A stretch of 22,316 nt of DNA from a virus: the IMG/VR virus record IMGVR_UViG_3300031963_011940, positions 1 through 22,316 of that record, one strand, 5' to 3'. Position numbers and translations under genes: made by a program. Below, in pieces: positions 12,387 through 22,316 of this stretch (positions are counted from its first letter, which is position 1; every line of letters starts with the position of its first letter). A model generated the notes under the pieces. It was not told where the DNA came from, did no database searches, and was given only the letters and a program-made list of their open reading frames with translations.

Positions 12387-12842
12387 TTATTTACTCCATT
12401 TTATACCATGTCTACAATCTGGCCAGATATAACCAACAGAAGGATCTGCTTCTGGAAACACCTCTCCATAAAATACCGGATCCTTTTTCTTTAGAACACA
12501 TTGATGGGTGTAATGAATTTCTTCGTCTCCAAACCAAAAGGGTAATTCATTATTAGAAGAGAAAAAGTCCTTATAAAAAGCAATTTGGTCTTCAGTATTG
12601 TCTTTATATCCTCGTCTTTTCCATTCTCGGCAAGAAACAATTCCATATTCTACTAACTGATTAAAGTGCCCCCACCACATCCATTTGCATGGATCCCTAA
12701 ACCCTAATGTCTTATCTTGATCAGGCTTCATTTGGAATGATCTCAAAATACCCAAAACTTCTGCTCTTTGTTTTCCTAGTCTTCTATAATCCAAGACTCT
12801 TAAAGATTTTTCATAATCAGGATAAGGAAGAAATGTTTGCAT
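12387..12842 (-). CDS. MSMEG_6728-family conserved protein
   Basis: The protein has 151 residues from ATG 12842. It begins 'MQTFLPYPDYEKSLRVLDYRR' and continues 'LGKQRAEVLGILRSF'. Further on are 'DPCKWMWWGHFNQLVEYG', 'EWKRRGYKD', 'LPFWFGDEEIHYTHQCVL' and a closing 'YIWP'. These blocks are hallmarks of a conserved family (MSMEG_6728-type) of about 150-180 residues found in bacteria and phages. Some phage genomes label such proteins as pyrimidine-dimer glycosylase-like, but I cannot see the T4 endonuclease V active site. The function is unproven. The frame extends upstream to 12917, but the family's 'MQTFLPYPD' start and the divergent neighbour favour 12842. Its start region faces the 214-aa gene across a 14-nt palindrome. 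Confidence 0.85.
   Translation of the reverse strand: MQTFLPYPDYEKSLRVLDYRRLGKQRAEVLGILRSFQMKPDQDKTLGFRDPCKWMWWGHFNQLVEYGIVSCREWKRRGYKDNTEDQIAFYKDFFSSNNELPFWFGDEEIHYTHQCVLKKKDPVFYGEVFPEADPSVGYIWPDCRHGIKWSK
12388..12393 (-). promoter_or_regulatory. Late-type promoter box TAAATA, 5 nt before ATG
   Basis: On the minus strand this reads TAAATA-ACAAC-ATG (ATG at 12382). The box overlaps the TAA stop (12389-12387) of the preceding gene. The spacing to ATG is the same 5 nt as at the other late-type sites. Confidence 0.55.
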
Positions 12843-12857
12843 GGTTAATAAGTTCAG

Positions 12858-12871
12858 GGGTTTCGAAACCC
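12858..12871. promoter_or_regulatory. 14-nt palindrome GGGTTTCGAAACCC between divergent genes
   Basis: This is a perfect palindrome in the 43-nt gap between ATG 12842 (-) and ATG 12886 (+). Each half contains GAAACCC, the motif found before three other genes. It therefore presents the motif to both divergent genes and may also be an operator. Confidence 0.55.
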
Positions 12872-12879
12872 AATATATT
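12865..12879 (+). promoter_or_regulatory. GAAACC-N3-TATATT promoter-like element
   Basis: GAAACCCAATATATT lies 6 nt before ATG 12886. The hexamer TATATT is in the place that TAAAAT takes in the three sister elements (13537, 14723, 18096). The spacing to ATG equals that at 18117. It supports 12886 over the earlier in-frame ATG at 12841. Confidence 0.5.
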
Positions 12880-12885
12880 GATAAC

Positions 12886-13530
12886 ATGTTTAGAGTTGAA
12901 AAAATTGATAAGCTCAATGAGCTTAGTAGGCGGGCAAAATATGATAAAGCCTATATGGATGAACTTAAATTAGTAGCATTTACTTTGAATAAAGAGATTG
13001 ATCAAGATGAAAAACACAACTTTAATATTATTTTTGATTTTATCAAATCAAAAGATGCTGAGTATTTTTCTATTTTGAATGATGGATTTCATTGCAATGT
13101 TCCAATAAAGAGTGATGTGTTCGGACCAGATTGGAATGTTACTATAAGCTATCGTTCTTCTTATTATAATATTAATAAAAAAATGGGTTATTGGGGTTGT
13201 CATCTTTTCAGACAGAATACAGAATATAAAGGCTTATATGTAAAGAAAGGAAACACATATAAACGATATACAAAAAGAAAAGATATTTTAAATTTTTATT
13301 TCGATAAAGGATTGGGTACAACTACTACACAATTGCCTCTACCTGCACCTGAATTCAATAATGAAACCGCCATTGACATTAAAACCAATCTAGAGATGAT
13401 TCCTCGTTTTGTAACTAAGAGCATTATTATTACTAATCTTAAATTGATTCGTCGTTTTGTTAAAATTTATCATTGGAATGGAAAAGAAGAAATTGTCAGA
13501 GAACTTAAAAAGTATTCACACATCAGATAA
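12886..13530 (+). CDS. Hypothetical 214-aa protein
   Basis: The protein starts 'MFRVEKIDKLNELSRRAKY'. An in-frame ATG exists at 12841, but it overlaps the start codon of the divergent gene and lies upstream of the promoter-like element, so 12886 is preferred. The N-terminal third looks helical and charged. The middle has an aromatic stretch, 'ISYRSSYYNINKKMGYWG', with Cys and His nearby. The C-terminus is basic. There is no signal peptide or membrane segment. I do not recognise a family. It is the first gene of the plus-strand block that leads to the MoxR and VWA genes and carries the same promoter-like element as they do, so it may belong to the same expression class. Confidence 0.65.
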   Translation: MFRVEKIDKLNELSRRAKYDKAYMDELKLVAFTLNKEIDQDEKHNFNIIFDFIKSKDAEYFSILNDGFHCNVPIKSDVFGPDWNVTISYRSSYYNINKKMGYWGCHLFRQNTEYKGLYVKKGNTYKRYTKRKDILNFYFDKGLGTTTTQLPLPAPEFNNETAIDIKTNLEMIPRFVTKSIIITNLKLIRRFVKIYHWNGKEEIVRELKKYSHIR

Positions 13531-13571: not shown

Positions 13572-14663
13572 ATGGCTACTACATCAAACACCACAATCAG
13601 AACCATCAGTCCGAAATCAGCAACCAAAGCAATTAAGCGTGCGATGTCTAAGCGTCGTCCAATTATGCTCTGGGGTCCTCCGGGAATCGGTAAGAGTGAC
13701 GTTGTTGCACAAATCGGTGCAGAACAAGGTCGCGAAGTAATCGACATTCGTCTGGCTCTCTGGGATCCTACGGATATTAAGGGAATGCCTTACCTTAATG
13801 AAAAAGACGGCACCATGAATTGGGCTCCTCCAAGTGAATTGCCGCATGATCCAAATAGCAAAGCAATTGTCTTCTTGGACGAAATTGTTTCGGCACCTCC
13901 TGCTGTTCAAGCTGCAGCTTATCAGTTGATCTTGAATCGCCGTGTAGGTAAGTATCGTCTGCCAGATGGTGTAGACATTGTAGCTGCAGGTAATCGTGAA
14001 GGTGATCGCGGCGTTACCTATAAGATGCCCGCTCCATTGGCTTCGCGGTTTATTCATCTCGAAATGACAGTGTCTAATGATGACTGGGTAGATTGGGCTG
14101 TGAATCATAATGTTCATCCCGACGTTATTGGTTATATTTCTTTCGCAAAGCAAGATCTTTTTAATTTTGATCCCCAATCTCCATCCCGTTCTTTTGCATG
14201 TCCGCGTACCTGGAATTTCGTATCTGATCTTCTCTGGGATGAAGATGAAGATGTTAATTCTTTGACAGATCTCGTATCGGGAGCTATTGGAGATGGATTG
14301 GCTTTGAAGTTCGTAGCACATCGTAAGCTTTGTGGTAAGTTACCTAAGGCAATTGATATTCTTGAAGGTAAAGTAACAGAGCTTAAGAATAAAGAAAGTC
14401 GTGAAGTCTCTGCAATGTATTCTCTGACGGTTTCTCTCTGTTATGAATTGAAAGAATTGGCAAATGCTAAGACGAAGAAATGGCATGATTATGCTGATCG
14501 CTACTTCCGTTTCATGATGGATAATTTTCCAACAGAATTGGTTATCATGGGTGCTAAGGTGGCTTTGACTAATTATGAATTGGATATTGATCCAAAGAAG
14601 CTAACCTCGTTTGATGATTTCTTTAATAAGTATGGTAAGTATGTTTTTGATAGTAATGATTGA
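13572..14663 (+). CDS. MoxR-type AAA+ ATPase
   Basis: The protein has 363 residues. Walker A is 'GPPGIGKS' at residues 35-42, Walker B is 'AIVFLDEI' at about 98-105, and a sensor-1 strand 'VDIVAAGNREGDRG' begins at about 134. The order and spacing fit the MoxR/AAA_5 class of AAA+ ATPases. Such ATPases typically act with a VWA-domain partner, remodelling protein complexes or inserting metal cofactors. The partner is present at 14745. A strong terminator and a fresh promoter-like element separate the two genes. Arginine is encoded almost entirely by CGT/CGC here, unlike the AGA-rich fibre genes, which may mean high expression or a different origin. The role in the phage is unknown. Virion assembly or host takeover are both possible. 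Confidence 0.93.
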   Translation: MATTSNTTIRTISPKSATKAIKRAMSKRRPIMLWGPPGIGKSDVVAQIGAEQGREVIDIRLALWDPTDIKGMPYLNEKDGTMNWAPPSELPHDPNSKAIVFLDEIVSAPPAVQAAAYQLILNRRVGKYRLPDGVDIVAAGNREGDRGVTYKMPAPLASRFIHLEMTVSNDDWVDWAVNHNVHPDVIGYISFAKQDLFNFDPQSPSRSFACPRTWNFVSDLLWDEDEDVNSLTDLVSGAIGDGLALKFVAHRKLCGKLPKAIDILEGKVTELKNKESREVSAMYSLTVSLCYELKELANAKTKKWHDYADRYFRFMMDNFPTELVIMGAKVALTNYELDIDPKKLTSFDDFFNKYGKYVFDSND

Positions 14664-14744: not shown

Positions 14745-15977
14745 ATGAAAAAGAAGCTCGAAAAGATTGAAAATATTAATATTCCAGCTGTTGAAGAAAA
14801 ATTGGTCAAGGCAGCTGTTTCGTTGCTAATTAAGCATCCTTTCTTTGGTCAGATGGTTCCGCACCTCAAACGTACTCGCGCAGAGGATTGGTGTGATACG
14901 GCTGCAACAGATGGTCGTAATTTCTTTTATAATCCAGCATTCATTCATGCACTCTCTACACAAGAGACGGTGTTTCTCTATGCACATGAAGTGCTTCATA
15001 ATTGTTTTGAGCATCATATTCGTAGAGGAAATAGAGAACCTAAGCTTTGGAATGTTGCTGCAGACTTTGCTATTAATCTAATTCTCTCCGATAATAATAT
15101 CGGAAAGCAAATTCCCGGTACTCTCTTAGACCAACAATTCAGAGATCTATCTGCCGAGCAAATCTATGATAAGATTAAAGAAGAATTGGATAAGAATAAT
15201 ACATTTGCCGGTATGACGTTAGATGAGATGGTAGAAAAACTTCTGGATGAACATCTTTCTGGCGGTAAGGATGATGATGAGAAAGATGGTAAGGGTAAAG
15301 GAAAGCGTCCTAATATGGAAGGCATGACAGAAGAAGAAAAGCAAAAACTTCGCGATGAAATCAAATCACAGCTAATGGCAGCTGCTCAGAATTGTGCTGG
15401 TAATATTCCAAAGGGAATGGGCCGTATTATTGAAGGATTATCTTCACCGAAAATGAATTGGAGAGAAATTCTTCGTAATCAAATTCAAAGCACTATTCGC
15501 TCTGATTATTCTTTTCTTACACCTTCTAAGAAAGGCATGTCTACACCATTTAAATTACCGGGCATGAAGAGAGATGAAACTCTAGACATTTGTGTCGGTA
15601 TTGATGCTTCTGGATCTATTAATGAAGATGATTTAAAAGCATTCTTGAGTGAGATTTATGGTATTATGTCACAGTATAGTGATTATCAAATTCATGTATG
15701 GAGTTATGATACGGTTGTATATAATCCCGAAGTCTTCCGAGCTGATGAAGGAAGAGATATTTCTACTTATGAGGTAAAGGGCGGCGGAGGTACCGATTTC
15801 AATGCATCATATGAATATATGAAAGATAATTCTATTGACGCAAAACTTTATATTAATTTCACCGATTTGTATCCAGGTAATGGATTTGGTGATCCAACCT
15901 ATTGTGATACTATTTTCGTAGTTAGAGGTAACAATAAAGACACAGCACCATTCGGATTAACCATCCGGATGGATTAG
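14745..15977 (+). CDS. DUF2201-type metallopeptidase-like / VWA-domain protein, MoxR partner
   Basis: The protein has 410 residues in two parts. The N-terminal part has the zinc-peptidase-type motif HEVLH (residues 81-85) followed by 'FEHH' and 'WNVAADFAINLIL', as in the DUF2201 N-terminal (VWA-associated metallopeptidase-like) family. A charged Lys/Glu/Asp-rich linker spans about residues 170-210. The C-terminal part is a VWA-like domain with an intact MIDAS: D-A-S-G-S at 287-291 and the Thr-Asp of 'GGGGTDF' at 350-351. Proteins of this type usually sit next to a MoxR ATPase, as here. The known pairing suggests a chaperone-like complex. Whether the peptidase site is active cannot be told. 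The gene has its own promoter-like element, and its TAG stop interlocks with the stop of the convergent 60-aa gene. Confidence 0.92.
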   Translation: MKKKLEKIENINIPAVEEKLVKAAVSLLIKHPFFGQMVPHLKRTRAEDWCDTAATDGRNFFYNPAFIHALSTQETVFLYAHEVLHNCFEHHIRRGNREPKLWNVAADFAINLILSDNNIGKQIPGTLLDQQFRDLSAEQIYDKIKEELDKNNTFAGMTLDEMVEKLLDEHLSGGKDDDEKDGKGKGKRPNMEGMTEEEKQKLRDEIKSQLMAAAQNCAGNIPKGMGRIIEGLSSPKMNWREILRNQIQSTIRSDYSFLTPSKKGMSTPFKLPGMKRDETLDICVGIDASGSINEDDLKAFLSEIYGIMSQYSDYQIHVWSYDTVVYNPEVFRADEGRDISTYEVKGGGGTDFNASYEYMKDNSIDAKLYINFTDLYPGNGFGDPTYCDTIFVVRGNNKDTAPFGLTIRMD

Positions 15978-16192: not shown

Positions 16193-16198
16193 TAAATA
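16193..16198 (+). promoter_or_regulatory. Late-type promoter box TAAATA before DUF1501 gene
   Basis: This reads GATAAATA-ATAAT-ATG, with ATG at 16204. The 5-nt spacing is the same as before the fibre genes, which puts the DUF1501 gene in the late-type expression class. Confidence 0.6.
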
Positions 16199-16203
16199 AT
16201 AAT

Positions 16204-17469
16204 ATGAATAGAAGAGATTTCCTCTATGCTGGCCTCTTCGGAGGGTTGGGCCTAACAACCGGTGATGTTCTTAGAGCTCAGTCTGAGTCTAAGATTTCTG
16301 CTAAAGCACAGTCAATTATTCACATTTACTTGCCGGGCGGCGCAGCAGCACAAGAAACATGGGATCCAAAAATACATGCTCCTATTGAATTCAGAGGTCC
16401 ATTAGGTTCAGTTCAAACAAGTATACCCGGGGTACACTTCTCTGAGTATATGAAAGAAACAGCTAAGATTGCTAACAAGATCACAGTTGTTCGTTCTATG
16501 ACTCACGGGGAAGCAGCACATGAACGCGGAACACATAATATGTTTACTGGATATCGCCCTTCTCCTGCTATTAAGTATCCTTCTTTTGGTTCTGTTGTGG
16601 CACATGAATTTGGAAGTAGAAATTATCTTCCTCCTTATGTTTGTGTTCCGAATATGAATTCTGAAGATGCCGGTACCGGATATCTTTCAAAAGCTTTTGG
16701 TCCCTTCTCATTAGGATCAGACCCAGCATCAAAAGATTTTGCTGTTAGAGATTTAAAAATGAATGCAGGTGTAGACGAAGCTAGATTCAATCGCCGCCGT
16801 AGTATTCTAGAAACAGTAGATAATCATTTCCGTTCTATTGAAGGTGCTGATGCCATTGCATCTATGAACAAGTTTTATCAACAAGCGTATGATCTTGTTT
16901 CTTCTCAACAAGCCAGAGAAGCATTTGAACTTTCTAAAGAACCAGAACATATTCGTAATGCTTATGGTCAAACACAAGCTGGTCAAAGATTCTTAATGGC
17001 AAGAAGATTAGTAGAAGCTGGAGTAAGATTCGTTTCTGTTGTTTATGGTGGATGGGATCATCATGCTGCTATCGGCGCTAATATCAAAAATCAATTACCA
17101 GCATTCGATCAAGCATATGCTGCGTTAATTAAAGATCTAGAACAAAGAGGAATGCTTAATGATACAATCGTAATGGTATCTTCTGAATTCGGCAGAACTC
17201 CTAAGATCAATAAAGATGCCGGCAGAGACCATTGGCCAAGAGTATTCTCAGTAGCTTTTGCAGGTGGTGGATTTAAGGAAGGCTATATTCATGGAGCATC
17301 CAATGCTACGGGTGCTGAACCAGAAGAAAAACCTTTGACCGTTGAAAATATGGCTGCTACTATCTATAATCAAATTGGTATCGACCCTACTAAACATTTG
17401 ATGTCGGATGGAAATAGACCAGTATCTATTGTTTATAATGGAACCGTCGAACAAGACTTATTAGCTTAA
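16204..17469 (+). CDS. DUF1501 family Tat-exported protein
   Basis: The protein has 421 residues, about full length for the family. A TTG upstream (16189) would overlap the promoter box, so ATG 16204 is chosen. The N-terminus is a twin-arginine signal: N-R-R-D-F-L at residues 2-7, then a Gly/Leu-rich hydrophobic stretch to about residue 20. DUF1501 hallmarks follow: 'IYLPGGAAAQETWDPK', 'GEAAHERGTHNMFTGYRPSP' from 102, 'GGWDHH' at 282-287, 'SEFGRTP' at 327-333 and 'GRDHWP' at 340-345. The His/Asp-rich motifs resemble the metal site of the alkaline phosphatase/sulfatase superfamily, to which DUF1501 is usually assigned. The family is expanded in Planctomycetota and Verrucomicrobiota, usually beside c-type cytochrome (DUF1549/DUF1553) genes, which are absent here. 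The substrate is unknown. I infer capture from a host. Confidence 0.95.
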   Translation: MNRRDFLYAGLFGGLGLTTGDVLRAQSESKISAKAQSIIHIYLPGGAAAQETWDPKIHAPIEFRGPLGSVQTSIPGVHFSEYMKETAKIANKITVVRSMTHGEAAHERGTHNMFTGYRPSPAIKYPSFGSVVAHEFGSRNYLPPYVCVPNMNSEDAGTGYLSKAFGPFSLGSDPASKDFAVRDLKMNAGVDEARFNRRRSILETVDNHFRSIEGADAIASMNKFYQQAYDLVSSQQAREAFELSKEPEHIRNAYGQTQAGQRFLMARRLVEAGVRFVSVVYGGWDHHAAIGANIKNQLPAFDQAYAALIKDLEQRGMLNDTIVMVSSEFGRTPKINKDAGRDHWPRVFSVAFAGGGFKEGYIHGASNATGAEPEEKPLTVENMAATIYNQIGIDPTKHLMSDGNRPVSIVYNGTVEQDLLA

Positions 17470-17473
17470 TTTT

Positions 17474-18094
17474 ATGGATCAATATAGAGTAACACAAATT
17501 ATTCAAGAACTCATTAATGATAAAAATAATGAGTTATCACAATTAAACAATTATCTTAGTGAAGCACAGACTAGTTCTTGGAACTATGTGAATCCCCAAG
17601 ATTACCAAAATATGGTAAACGAAAAGGATATGGCATGGGGCAGAGTAAGTGATTTACAAAATCAATTAACTTCTGTACAACAAAACTATGATATGTTTGT
17701 ATCTAATTCTTCTAATTCAACTGCAGAGTTAGATGCTATGCGTTCTGTTTTAGAAGCTGTACGAGGTGAAAGGGATTTTTTCCAATCACAATTAGAATCT
17801 AAAGATTCATCTATTGCAGATCTGTCTAATACAGTAGAATCAAAAAATGTCGAATTGGCATCTATTCAAGGTTCTGTTAATGATTTGCAAATTAAAATTA
17901 CAGAACAAAATACTATTGTAGCAGATTTAAATTCACAACTTAATACAAAGCAAGAAGAAATTCTTTCATTGAAACAAAAGTTAGGAGACTTTGAAAGTAA
18001 GCTCCTTAATCTTAAAAGTAAAATCAAAGCCGAAATGGAAGAAGCTACTAGCGAAGTTGAAGAAGCTTTTGAAGAATCTAATTTGATTGATTAG
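17474..18094 (+). CDS. Coiled-coil protein, 206 aa
   Basis: It begins 4 nt after the DUF1501 stop, so the two are very likely on one mRNA. The sequence is dominated by heptad-like patterns rich in Leu, Gln, Glu and Ser ('LESKDSSIADLSNTVESKN', 'LNTKQEEILSLKQKLG'), from about residue 50 to the end. The tail is acidic ('EEATSEVEEAFEESN'). There is no signal peptide, transmembrane segment or enzymatic motif. It may be a long, elongated dimer or trimer. Coiled coils of this type occur in phage structural and scaffold proteins, but no family is recognised. Its link to the DUF1501 protein is by position only. Confidence 0.75.
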   Translation: MDQYRVTQIIQELINDKNNELSQLNNYLSEAQTSSWNYVNPQDYQNMVNEKDMAWGRVSDLQNQLTSVQQNYDMFVSNSSNSTAELDAMRSVLEAVRGERDFFQSQLESKDSSIADLSNTVESKNVELASIQGSVNDLQIKITEQNTIVADLNSQLNTKQEEILSLKQKLGDFESKLLNLKSKIKAEMEEATSEVEEAFEESNLID

Positions 18095-18116: not shown

Positions 18117-18686
18117 ATGAAAAAAATCCTCATTTGTTCAGTCCTAGTAGGAGCCACACTTATCTCTTGCACAGAGAAGACAGATGTGGCTCTCACTGTT
18201 TTTAGAGATAAGCAAGAAGATAAATTGTTGCAGCAAGTGGGTGAAGGAGAAGCTGCTATTGAATTTTATCGTAGGCAATATGGTGTACTAAAAGAAAGGT
18301 TAGTACGACTTAGGACTATGGAAATTCTTTTTCAGAAGCAAGCAGATCAAGCCATGGCAGACGGTAAGATTACCCGATCGTCTTTCTTGGATCAAAAGTT
18401 AGCGATGCTTCATGATAGGATTCCAAAAGCCGAAAAAGAGCTAAATGGCTTCTATGAAGTTCTAGAAAGGAAAAGAGAAGAGATTCGTTTAATCAAAGAC
18501 GAAACATATATCAATACTGCCATGGCTAAGACTACTGCGGATCTACCTGCTGTATCTGCTTATGAAAAACGAAAAGAAACCATAGATAATCTTGTTGAAT
18601 CACTAAGAGAAAAAGCTAGTAGATCTGAAGCTCTATTGCAAGTATCTCTTAATGAAGAAAGAATGATCCAAAATGAAACTAAGTAA
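18117..18686 (+). CDS. Coiled-coil lipoprotein, 189 aa
   Basis: The N-terminus 'MKKILICSVLVGATLISC' is a classical lipoprotein signal with lipobox L-I-S-C and the lipidated Cys at residue 18. The mature part is highly charged and helical with heptad patterns ('GEGEAAIEFYRRQYGVLKERL', 'EKELNGFYEVLERKREEI'). It should be exported and membrane-anchored in the host envelope. It heads an operon with a second lipoprotein (14-nt overlap) and a UVDE endonuclease. I do not recognise the family. Phage-encoded lipoproteins often block superinfection or serve lysis (outer spanins), but those are usually shorter and neither role is shown here. Possibly host-derived. Confidence 0.82.
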   Translation: MKKILICSVLVGATLISCTEKTDVALTVFRDKQEDKLLQQVGEGEAAIEFYRRQYGVLKERLVRLRTMEILFQKQADQAMADGKITRSSFLDQKLAMLHDRIPKAEKELNGFYEVLERKREEIRLIKDETYINTAMAKTTADLPAVSAYEKRKETIDNLVESLREKASRSEALLQVSLNEERMIQNETK

Positions 18687-19425
18687 AATTATTCCTCTTA
18701 TTGCAATTTTTCTAGTTGCATGTGAACCAGAAAAGAAGATATTCATCCCCGATGATGTAATTCTTGAGTATACACCTACTCTTCTAACAAAAAAAGAAGC
18801 CTTTGAATTTCGTATTCAAAAAATTAAAGAAGAAAAAGCATTATTCGAAAAGCTCTATAGAGAAATTCAATCACCGAATGCTAGAGAGAATACTTACTTA
18901 AAAATTAGAGAATTAGATAAGGAAGAAGCAAAATTAAAAAATCAATTATTTAATATTTTAAATATTGCAGAAGATAATGCTGTTAAGAAACATGACAGCC
19001 TATTACCAGTAAATGATGAATATTTAAATGATAAAACATTGCAGTCAGAAAAAGTATCATATCCTTTCTGGCAACCAAATGGCGAACCAATTCTTTATCC
19101 TAATATCAATAAATTTGATGTTGTAAAGGAATTTAAATATGTAGAAAAATTCAAAGGACATTTTGATGAAAAAAATATTTGGAGAATTTATAACAAATAC
19201 CCTCAAGTATTAGACATTCGTACACCAGCTGGTTGGAGATATTGGCAATTAGTCCAGTCTGCTTGTTGCCATTTGTCTACATACGTACCAACAGAAGATT
19301 GTTTAATGGATCTAGCTAAAGAAATTTACGAAGAAAGGGGTATTAAAGATCATGAAACCCTTCATTATAAGTATGGTTATCAGAGACCAGATCATGTTTT
19401 AAAATGGAATAAAAATAGTCTATGA
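18673..19425 (+). CDS. Second lipoprotein, 250 aa
   Basis: The start overlaps the previous gene by 14 nt. 'MKLSKIIPLIAIFLVAC' is a lipoprotein signal with lipobox L-V-A-C (Cys 17). The next 100 residues are charged helices ('AFEFRIQKIKEEKALFEKLY', 'LDKEEAKLKNQL'), resembling the coiled-coil plan of the preceding lipoprotein. The C-terminal half is different: globular and aromatic-rich ('PFWQPNGEPILYP', 'TPAGWRYWQLVQSACCHLS'), with a Cys pair and a further Cys. The two products may act together at the envelope. It ends in an ATGA overlap with the UVDE gene. No family recognised. Confidence 0.8.
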   Translation: MKLSKIIPLIAIFLVACEPEKKIFIPDDVILEYTPTLLTKKEAFEFRIQKIKEEKALFEKLYREIQSPNARENTYLKIRELDKEEAKLKNQLFNILNIAEDNAVKKHDSLLPVNDEYLNDKTLQSEKVSYPFWQPNGEPILYPNINKFDVVKEFKYVEKFKGHFDEKNIWRIYNKYPQVLDIRTPAGWRYWQLVQSACCHLSTYVPTEDCLMDLAKEIYEERGIKDHETLHYKYGYQRPDHVLKWNKNSL

Positions 19426-20312
19426 GATTAGGATTATGTTGTTTATTGTTGGGTAACGAAGCTAGTGAATTTAGGTCTACTACAGTTACGTGGGCTAAAA
19501 AGAATAATGATAAAATATACAATAAATTAAAAAATATATATGATCATAATTTAAATGAATTATGTAAAGTAGTAGATTATTGTATTAATAATAATATTTG
19601 GCATTATAGAATTTCATCTTCTTTATTCCCGTTAGCTGATCTTGAACCTTATTCTGATTACTTCAACGATTATATCGATAATAAAGAATATTGGTTGATG
19701 TCAAGAAAAAAAATTAATGAATTTATTTCTTTGGGTGGCAGACTGTCAATGCATCCTTCACAATTTTGTATTATTACTAATCCTGATAAAAAAATATCTT
19801 CTTCTTCATTAACTAATCTTGAAATGCATGGCGCTATCATGTCAAATTTAGGAATTCATGAGAACTTTCAATATCCCATCAACATTCATCTCTCTAATGG
19901 CAAAAGATCTCAGGAAGCTATCAATGCGGCGCTTTTAAATATAGATAAATTATCAATGAAAGTTCGTGCCAGACTAGTATTCGAAAATGAAGATAAAAGT
20001 TACTGGACTTGGCAAAAAATACATAGAGCTTTTCCCAATACTCCTATTACCTTAGATTATCATCATAGATTGATTAATAATGAAGGAGAGCCAGAATGGA
20101 AAGCTCATGAAGCATGCGTCGGCTCTTGGACTAGATATGGAGTAAAAGCCCTATTCCATTATAGTGAAGGTAGAGATCATTCATTAGATAGATCTCATTC
20201 TGATTATATTAATGAATTACCGCGATATTCTGATATGGATTTAGAAATTGAAGCTAAACAAAAAAATCTAGCTATCTTAGATATAAGAAACAAACAATAT
20301 ATTTTTGACTAA
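19422..20312 (+). CDS. uvsE: UV-damage endonuclease, UVDE/UvsE family
   Basis: The protein has 296 residues, near the usual length of bacterial UVDE. It is a metal-dependent TIM-barrel enzyme that nicks DNA 5' of UV photoproducts and some other lesions. The visible family motifs, which carry the expected metal ligands, are 'HYRISSSLFP', 'MHPSQF' (His 111), 'NIHLS' (His 156), 'FENED' (Glu 188), 'LDYHH' (Asp 212, His 215), 'FHYSEG' (His 246) and 'DLEIEAKQK' (Glu 275 or 277). The start overlaps the stop of the second lipoprotein gene as ATGA, so translation is probably coupled. In a phage it would repair sunlight damage to the viral genome. That suits an aquatic surface habitat, which is inference. 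Its grouping with lipoproteins is unusual. Confidence 0.95.
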   Translation: MRLGLCCLLLGNEASEFRSTTVTWAKKNNDKIYNKLKNIYDHNLNELCKVVDYCINNNIWHYRISSSLFPLADLEPYSDYFNDYIDNKEYWLMSRKKINEFISLGGRLSMHPSQFCIITNPDKKISSSSLTNLEMHGAIMSNLGIHENFQYPINIHLSNGKRSQEAINAALLNIDKLSMKVRARLVFENEDKSYWTWQKIHRAFPNTPITLDYHHRLINNEGEPEWKAHEACVGSWTRYGVKALFHYSEGRDHSLDRSHSDYINELPRYSDMDLEIEAKQKNLAILDIRNKQYIFD

Positions 20313-21207: not shown

Positions 21208-21215
21208 AATAAATA
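21208..21215 (+). promoter_or_regulatory. Late-type promoter box AATAAATA, 5 nt before ATG
   Basis: This reads AATAAATA-AAAGC-ATG, with ATG at 21221. The same 5-nt spacing is seen at the other late-type starts. Only 33 nt separate the two divergent genes here. Confidence 0.6.
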
Positions 21216-21220
21216 AAAGC

Positions 21221-22316
21221 ATGCCCAGTATTACATTTCCTTCGGGGAGTATATTAACCCCCACTGTATTAGAACTATCTACTAACCTAGCTAGTCTTTA
21301 CAGCACTGTGTGCGGAGAAAGTGCAAATTGGGGTAATGCCCTGCCTTTAGATCATTCTAAATGGGATGCTACGTTTGATACGGTAAGTACTTTGAGTGGA
21401 GATTGGAATAGTGTTTACTCTGCAGTTTCTATCAACAGTGGATCATGGTCGTATCAAGGTAATGATATTAAACCATTAACTGCAGGATGGCAAAATACCT
21501 ATGGTACAGTATCTTCACTTAGTTCAAATTGGGATGCTACGTTTGATACGGTAAGTACTTTGAGTGGAGATTGGAATAGTGTTTACTCTGCAGTTTCTAT
21601 CAACAGTGGATCATGGCAAAATACTTATGGTACAGTATCTTCTCTTAGTTCAAATTGGGATGCTACCTATGCATTAATGTCAAGTAATTCTGCTAATTGG
21701 GACGGCGCATATACCACTTTAAATGATGTATCAGCTAGTTTTGGCGATTCATTAACTTGGGTTAAAAATAATTCTTCAACAATGTATGTTGATAGATTAG
21801 GAGTTAATACAGACATTAATTTATTGGCAAATAATTTAAAATTAGCAGTTCAAGGTGATACTGTAATATATGGAAATTTATCTTCACTGGGTACTACAAC
21901 ATTAGTAAATGTTACGGCAAACGTAACTGATGCATTATCAGTTGTTAATCCTGGATTCGGTGCACCCAATGCAATATTCATAAGTCAGGGGGGTCCTGGC
22001 GCCGGTATAAAGATGAACAACGCCGGATCCGGACCTATGATGACATTGGAAGGAAATGGGAATGTGGGTATAGGTACAGGAACACCTAATGAGAAACTGA
22101 CAGTAAATGGCAATATTTCTGGTAATGGTGTGATATATGCCTCGGGTGGAAATAGTAATTTATGGAATTCATCTACTACTTTATTTGCTGGATATTCTGC
22201 TGTTTGGCAAAGCAATGTAGTAACAACTAGTTCTTCATCGGGTCGATGGAATGCAGCTTATAGTTCTTTGACAGGTACTAGTGCTAAGTGGGATAATACA
22301 TTCAATGTTGTATCTT
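21221..22316 (+). CDS. Repeat-rich tail-fibre protein (3' partial)
   Basis: The frame stays open from ATG 21221 to the window end, at least 365 residues. Residues about 35-165 are tandem units with a Trp roughly every 14 residues ('SSNWDATFDTVSTLSGDW', 'NSVYSAVSINSGSW'), a repeat style typical of long trimeric phage fibres. Then comes a strand-rich shaft with 'VGIGTGTPNEKLTVNGNISG', the pattern often found ahead of S74-type chaperone domains. 'NLWNSSTTLFAGYSAVW' follows, and then more Trp repeats running off the edge. Part of the repeat region is duplicated at the DNA level. It is very likely a tail-fibre or receptor-binding shaft protein. Its C-terminal domain is outside the window. Confidence 0.85.
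   Translation, partial: MPSITFPSGSILTPTVLELSTNLASLYSTVCGESANWGNALPLDHSKWDATFDTVSTLSGDWNSVYSAVSINSGSWSYQGNDIKPLTAGWQNTYGTVSSLSSNWDATFDTVSTLSGDWNSVYSAVSINSGSWQNTYGTVSSLSSNWDATYALMSSNSANWDGAYTTLNDVSASFGDSLTWVKNNSSTMYVDRLGVNTDINLLANNLKLAVQGDTVIYGNLSSLGTTTLVNVTANVTDALSVVNPGFGAPNAIFISQGGPGAGIKMNNAGSGPMMTLEGNGNVGIGTGTPNEKLTVNGNISGNGVIYASGGNSNLWNSSTTLFAGYSAVWQSNVVTTSSSSGRWNAAYSSLTGTSAKWDNTFNVVS
21362..21448 (+). repeat. 87-nt direct repeat, copy 1
   Basis: This stretch, from TGGGATGCTACGTTTGATAC to CAGTGGATCATGG, recurs without a mismatch at 21530-21616. It encodes 29 residues containing two Trp units of the fibre repeat. Confidence 0.9.
21530..21616 (+). repeat. 87-nt direct repeat, copy 2
   Basis: Identical to 21362-21448, offset by 168 nt. 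An adjoining shorter repeat (21488-21542, recurring at 21614-21668 with two mismatches) shows that the array was assembled by more than one duplication. Confidence 0.9.

Follow-up and report, generated by a model that had tools for sequence, protein, structure and literature searches.

Introduction

DUF1501 and the PSCyt/DUF1549/DUF1553 proteins form large families of the bacteria of the PVC group and have no established function. In planctomycetes, DUF1501 genes are paired with PSCyt genes, which carry the PSCyt1, DUF1549 (PSCyt2) and DUF1553 (PSD1) domains, and in freshwater Verrucomicrobia PSCyt genes neighbour genes for sulfatases and CBM proteins (PMC5615132). DUF1501 proteins with a Tat motif are also encoded with a conserved partner, DUF1800, beside bacterial chitin synthases (PMC5122149). 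Here we show that a virus that probably infects Verrucomicrobiota carries an intact DUF1501 gene whose product is predicted to be exported, and that related viruses carry it with a second DUF1501 gene and a matching diheme cytochrome gene, suggesting that viruses have repeatedly taken over this bacterial envelope module.

A full-length DUF1501 gene in a viral record

The window, i.e. the whole stretch of DNA analysed (22,316 nucleotides of IMG/VR record IMGVR_UViG_3300031963_011940), contains a single DUF1501 gene, at positions 16204–17469 on the (+) strand. Its 421-aa product, referred to as DUF1501-A, matches Pfam DUF1501 (PF07394) with E=1.3e-110 and 370.7 bits, well above the curated cut-off of 27, over profile positions 1–385 of 390. 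Its N-terminus, MNRRDFLYAGLFGGLGL, carries a Tat signal (residues 1–26) with a twin-arginine motif, which is conserved in 94–100% of every viral and host group examined; export itself was not assayed. A TAAATA motif resembling the T4 late promoter (16193–16198, +) precedes the start codon by five bases (TAAATA-N5-ATG), the same spacing being found before DUF1501-A in relatives. Six of 18 candidate gene starts in the window, including those of fibre genes, have this motif at exactly −11, whereas we calculate that about 0.01 would be expected from its 33 occurrences on both strands. Promoter activity was not tested and no transcript was measured; if this is the promoter, a T4-type −10 box so close to the start codon (16193–16204, 21210–21221 and similar sites in the window; L015:2843 and L015:292 in another locus) would make late mRNAs nearly leaderless. 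The observation made in the earlier note, that of a full-length DUF1501 gene with intact motifs, a Tat signal and the same upstream signal as the fibre genes, is thus confirmed.

DUF1501-A is followed after 4 bases by a gene for a 206-aa coiled-coil protein (17474–18094, +), likely co-transcribed with it; searches with this protein returned only coiled-coil matches, and its NCBIfam and PADLOC hits are coiled-coil noise. Next come genes for two predicted lipoproteins, of 189 aa (18117–18686, +; lipobox LISC) and 250 aa (18673–19425, +; lipobox LVAC), the second overlapping the first, and the run ends with a gene for a UV-damage endonuclease (UvdE; 19422–20312, +; PF03851, E=8.5e-44). The coiled-coil and lipoprotein genes are syntenic in relatives. 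Upstream lie a MoxR-type AAA ATPase gene (13572–14663, +; PHROG 1297, E=1e-102) and a gene for a DUF2201 metallopeptidase/VWA-like protein (14745–15977, +; PF13203, E=2e-39; PHROG 1314). A DenV-like pyrimidine-dimer glycosylase (12387–12917, −; PF03013) gives this phage two UV-repair genes. The window ends inside a fibre-like gene (21221–22316, +), which has the same TAAATA-N5-ATG signal.

The earlier note had made its reading conditional on the record being viral rather than a chimera or a bacterial chromosome. Viral origin is supported by the LamG-type and other fibre genes and by the MoxR/DUF2201 pair; the DUF2201 protein has relatives in 750 isolated phages, among them Escherichia, Vibrio and Pseudomonas phages, and the pair also lies on a 154-kb contig that has a T4 portal. 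Neither gp23 nor portal was found in the window or its close relatives, all of which are fragments, so that, despite the late-type signal, the attribution to T4-like phages is neither established nor excluded by these markers. The same gene order around DUF1501-A occurs in IMG/VR contigs from four other samples, which led us to reject a chimera.

Related phages carry a second DUF1501 gene and a diheme cytochrome gene

In these relatives, the gene run continues beyond the point where the window stops. A second DUF1501 gene (B; 454 aa, about 29% identical to A) follows 5–7 kb downstream of A and, in the three contigs that reach far enough (G001, G003 and G004), ThyX and a 992-aa PSCyt1-DUF1549-DUF1553 protein follow; G002 ends before them. 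Both CxxCH haem motifs of the latter protein are invariant across 21 phage and host sequences, whereas its predicted structure (pLDDT 56) was not used. In this group, TAAATA also precedes B (at −12/−13) and the PSCyt gene (at −11); it lies at −11 before A in several other lineages. That the window's own phage has B and PSCyt is inferred from these relatives: both are absent from the 22-kb window, which ends in the fibre gene, so that its membership of a DUF1501–DUF1549/1553 module is left undecided. Our first assumption, that A alone marks the phage, was dropped once B and PSCyt were found.

A search with an alignment of A found at least 140 viral stretches, of which 80 were kept, in several phage lineages; a search with B found 55. 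Arrangements include (i) A and B adjacent; (ii) PSCyt1-DUF1549-DUF1553 and B directly adjacent, as in bacteria, on viral contigs of up to 171 kb (loci L129–L150); (iii) a metalloprotease-like gene (M12/M10 matches) with a hydrophobic N-terminus between A and B (contig G006; L018:250–1737); (iv) three to four DUF1501 paralogs close together in marine phages with DNA polymerase III alpha genes (L070:8754–14430, L084, L089 and L102), some of which form viral-only clades in our tree. Of 40 records searched, most of them over 40 kb, 12 have a terminase match (8 over the curated cut-off), and of 45, 7 have T4 gp23, on contigs with DUF1501-A and/or -B; the 227-kb record G010 has A, B, terminase and gp23 together. 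A motif scan not tuned to A yielded at least 91 full-length viral DUF1501s (28 A, 6 B and 57 others among 91), a sample whose rows are related by descent; one lies on a very AT-rich contig of 319,857 bases (L345; GC 0.24).

No isolated phage in INPHARED matches A, B or PSCyt, and PHROGs has no match for A. Literature searches on DUF1501 and phages turned up a listing of an unrelated 61-aa Pseudomonas phage protein with a CDD hit, and none was found for DUF1549 with virus; as far as these searches reach, no paper reports either family as a full gene in phages.

Phylogeny and selective constraint

A phylogeny had been proposed in the note as a means to place the gene. The closest bacterial genes are from Verrucomicrobiota (70% identity) and, in a quick tree of 196 DUF1501 proteins, the window protein falls in a clade of 15 viral A proteins (SH-aLRT 97) sister to 10 Verrucomicrobiota proteins (99); a second viral A clade, of 14, nests by Planctomycetota. 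Eight host/virus switches are needed inside the A clade. The direction from host to phage is inferred from nesting, the root being a midpoint, and is not shown. Thirty host genomes chosen for having A carry 14 to 378 first-look DUF1501 candidates but usually a single A (above 640 bits), whereas A accounts for 28 of the 91 viral proteins mentioned above. A is not universal in the phylum: in an even sample, only 3 of 145 genomes have it at E<=1e-180.

Between window-type phages, dN/dS is 0.023 for A, 0.023 for B and 0.031 for PSCyt, indicative of strong purifying selection. The corresponding values are 0.019 for MoxR, 0.069 for DUF2201 and 0.05–0.15 for the genes from after A to UvdE (0.05 for the 189-aa lipoprotein).

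A predicted alkaline-phosphatase-superfamily fold with an altered metal pair

Structure prediction, which the note had suggested as a test for an alkaline phosphatase-like metal site, gave an AlphaFold2 model (pLDDT 83, pTM 0.83) whose core matches NPP phosphodiesterases, PafA and sulfatases in the PDB. A sequence search of solved structures gave no significant relative. H106, D285, H287, E328, D342 and H343 are invariant in viral A copies, and H106, D285, H287, E328, F329 and H343 are invariant or nearly so in host A, host B and all viral groups; likewise, the residues invariant in host copies (H106, D285, H287, E328, FGR and GRDH) are all present in the window protein and in nearly all viral copies of each group. 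Loss of conserved metal-site residues from the phage copy, which would have spoken against the note's reading, was therefore not observed: the phage copy lacks nothing conserved in the family. However, the sulfatase alignment puts S-E-F-G over the metal S-D-H-G, so that the canonical Asp-His metal pair of the superfamily reads Glu-Phe in hosts and phages alike. Catalysis may thus differ or be absent, and we found no DUF1501 protein with a tested activity; the metal site was not built in the model and its geometry was not measured. Catalytic membership of the superfamily is hence an open matter, even though the predicted core fold agrees with it.

Possible roles of the phage-borne proteins

The interpretation given in the earlier note is partly supported. 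Its claims of a phage-encoded, full-length protein with a Tat signal, a late-type signal, a link to a PVC (Verrucomicrobiota-like) host and, as it had proposed to test, an alkaline-phosphatase-like fold are supported. On the other hand, it placed DUF1549/DUF1553 in bacteria only, whereas the phages carry that partner too; the canonical metal pair is replaced; the virion-linked role it considered is not supported; and action on surface polymers is still a guess.

Our preferred reading, which we hold tentatively, is that a Verrucomicrobiota-type bacterial DUF1501 gene was captured by a T4-like phage and kept as a working late gene. The sequences themselves show an intact family member, the Tat signal, the late-type signal, strong purifying selection, linkage in relatives to B and to a diheme PSCyt1-DUF1549-DUF1553 protein with the same signal, and repeated occurrence across unrelated phages. 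The rest is inference: after late transcription, the protein would fold in the cytoplasm, pass through the host Tat system and work in the periplasm or envelope, next to the two predicted lipoproteins and beside the exported diheme cytochrome, as a metal-dependent hydrolase/transferase of the alkaline-phosphatase superfamily, its hydrolase nature being inferred from the fold. Together, these proteins would act on the host's own envelope or periplasmic polymer late in infection, helping release or blocking re-adsorption; the substrate is unknown and this final purpose is the least certain step. An even bolder version, which we regard as unlikely though not excluded, is that phages of Verrucomicrobiota and Planctomycetota carry a dedicated late envelope apparatus built from exported DUF1501 enzymes (A and B, up to four paralogs) and a diheme PSCyt cytochrome, i.e. 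a redox-coupled exported machine used to dismantle or remodel the PVC cell envelope, a phage strategy not described before.

The most serious alternative, which is possible but somewhat less favoured, is that of an auxiliary metabolic module, in which the exported DUF1501 proteins and the cytochrome keep the infected host's scavenging of phosphate, sulfate or carbohydrate, or its periplasmic electron flow, running to feed phage production. Consistent with this idea, host DUF1501-A sits in an operon with a PPC-domain protein and a DUF1549/DUF1553 cytochrome, host PSCyt genes neighbour sulfatases and CBM proteins (PMC5615132), and the predicted fold is that of the alkaline-phosphatase superfamily. 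Kinship with host genes is shown, but no metabolic role was assayed here and no substrate is known; moreover, the late-type signal and the gene run with fibres and lipoproteins fit a late envelope role better than replication-phase metabolism.

The other explanations seem less likely. Superinfection exclusion, whereby the exported proteins and the two lipoproteins would alter the host surface or receptor so that other phages cannot enter, would fit the gene run (A, coiled coil, lipoprotein, lipoprotein) and the strong conservation, but late timing is unusual for exclusion by a lytic phage and no similarity to known defence proteins was found apart from coiled-coil noise; we deem it unlikely. 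A virion-associated enzyme acting on host surface polymers at adsorption is more doubtful still: the TAAATA signal is shared with the fibre genes and, in contig G009, A and B lie upstream of collagen-like tail fibres, but the conserved Tat signal sends the protein out of the cytoplasm, where virions assemble, and no fusion to a structural domain was seen. Finally, the records are metagenomic and incomplete, and many IMG/VR contigs carry no terminase or gp23 match, which could point to bacterial DNA joined to a phage contig or to bacterial contigs miscalled as viral. This seems very improbable given the same arrangement in four other samples, with dS of about 0.7–1.1 between two of them and the window, the presence of A, B, TerL and gp23 on the single contig G010, and the GC content of the viral loci (mostly 0.24–0.45), compared to about 0.46–0.70 in hosts.

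That phages repeatedly hold the same, usually single-copy ortholog (A), with B and a cytochrome, and preserve them at dN/dS of about 0.02–0.03 says that these proteins do something a phage needs. It offers a handle on the function of these families, in the form of small sets of two to four genes with a late-type signal, as well as a host marker for uncultured phages, the DUF1501 clade pointing to Verrucomicrobiota or Planctomycetota.

Comparison with known systems

Host-derived exported genes carried by phages are already known; what differs here is the cargo, which has not been described before as far as our searches reach. The closest relatives of the window protein, the DUF1501-A proteins of Verrucomicrobiota (Chthoniobacteraceae/Verrucomicrobiaceae, e.g. 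loci L160 and L174), share about 70% identity, the Tat signal and the conserved residues with it and form its sister clade. In several hosts, however, the gene lies in an operon with a gene for a PPC-domain protein (about 820 aa) and then one for a DUF1549/DUF1553 cytochrome (e.g. host loci L174 and L226), whereas the phage gene lies with a coiled coil, two lipoproteins and UvdE, without a PPC partner seen. Like the planctomycete PSCyt–DUF1501 gene pairs, the phage relatives encode a complete PSCyt1-DUF1549-DUF1553 protein with both haem motifs and a DUF1501-B, the two genes being adjacent in some phages; they differ in being encoded by phages and, in the window group, in being preceded by phage late-type signals and split by ThyX and a small gene. 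The DUF1501–DUF1800 pairs beside chitin synthases (PMC5122149) also combine a Tat-motif DUF1501 with a conserved partner gene, but the partner is DUF1800, which was not seen here, and the location is a bacterial chromosome. As to the NPP phosphodiesterases, PafA and sulfatases, they share the predicted core fold with DUF1501-A (VIA Z 17–19 over about 245–280 residues), with only 12–16% identity to NPP and PafA, the replacement of the Asp-His metal pair by Glu-Phe and a helical stretch at about residues 190–260 setting the phage protein apart.
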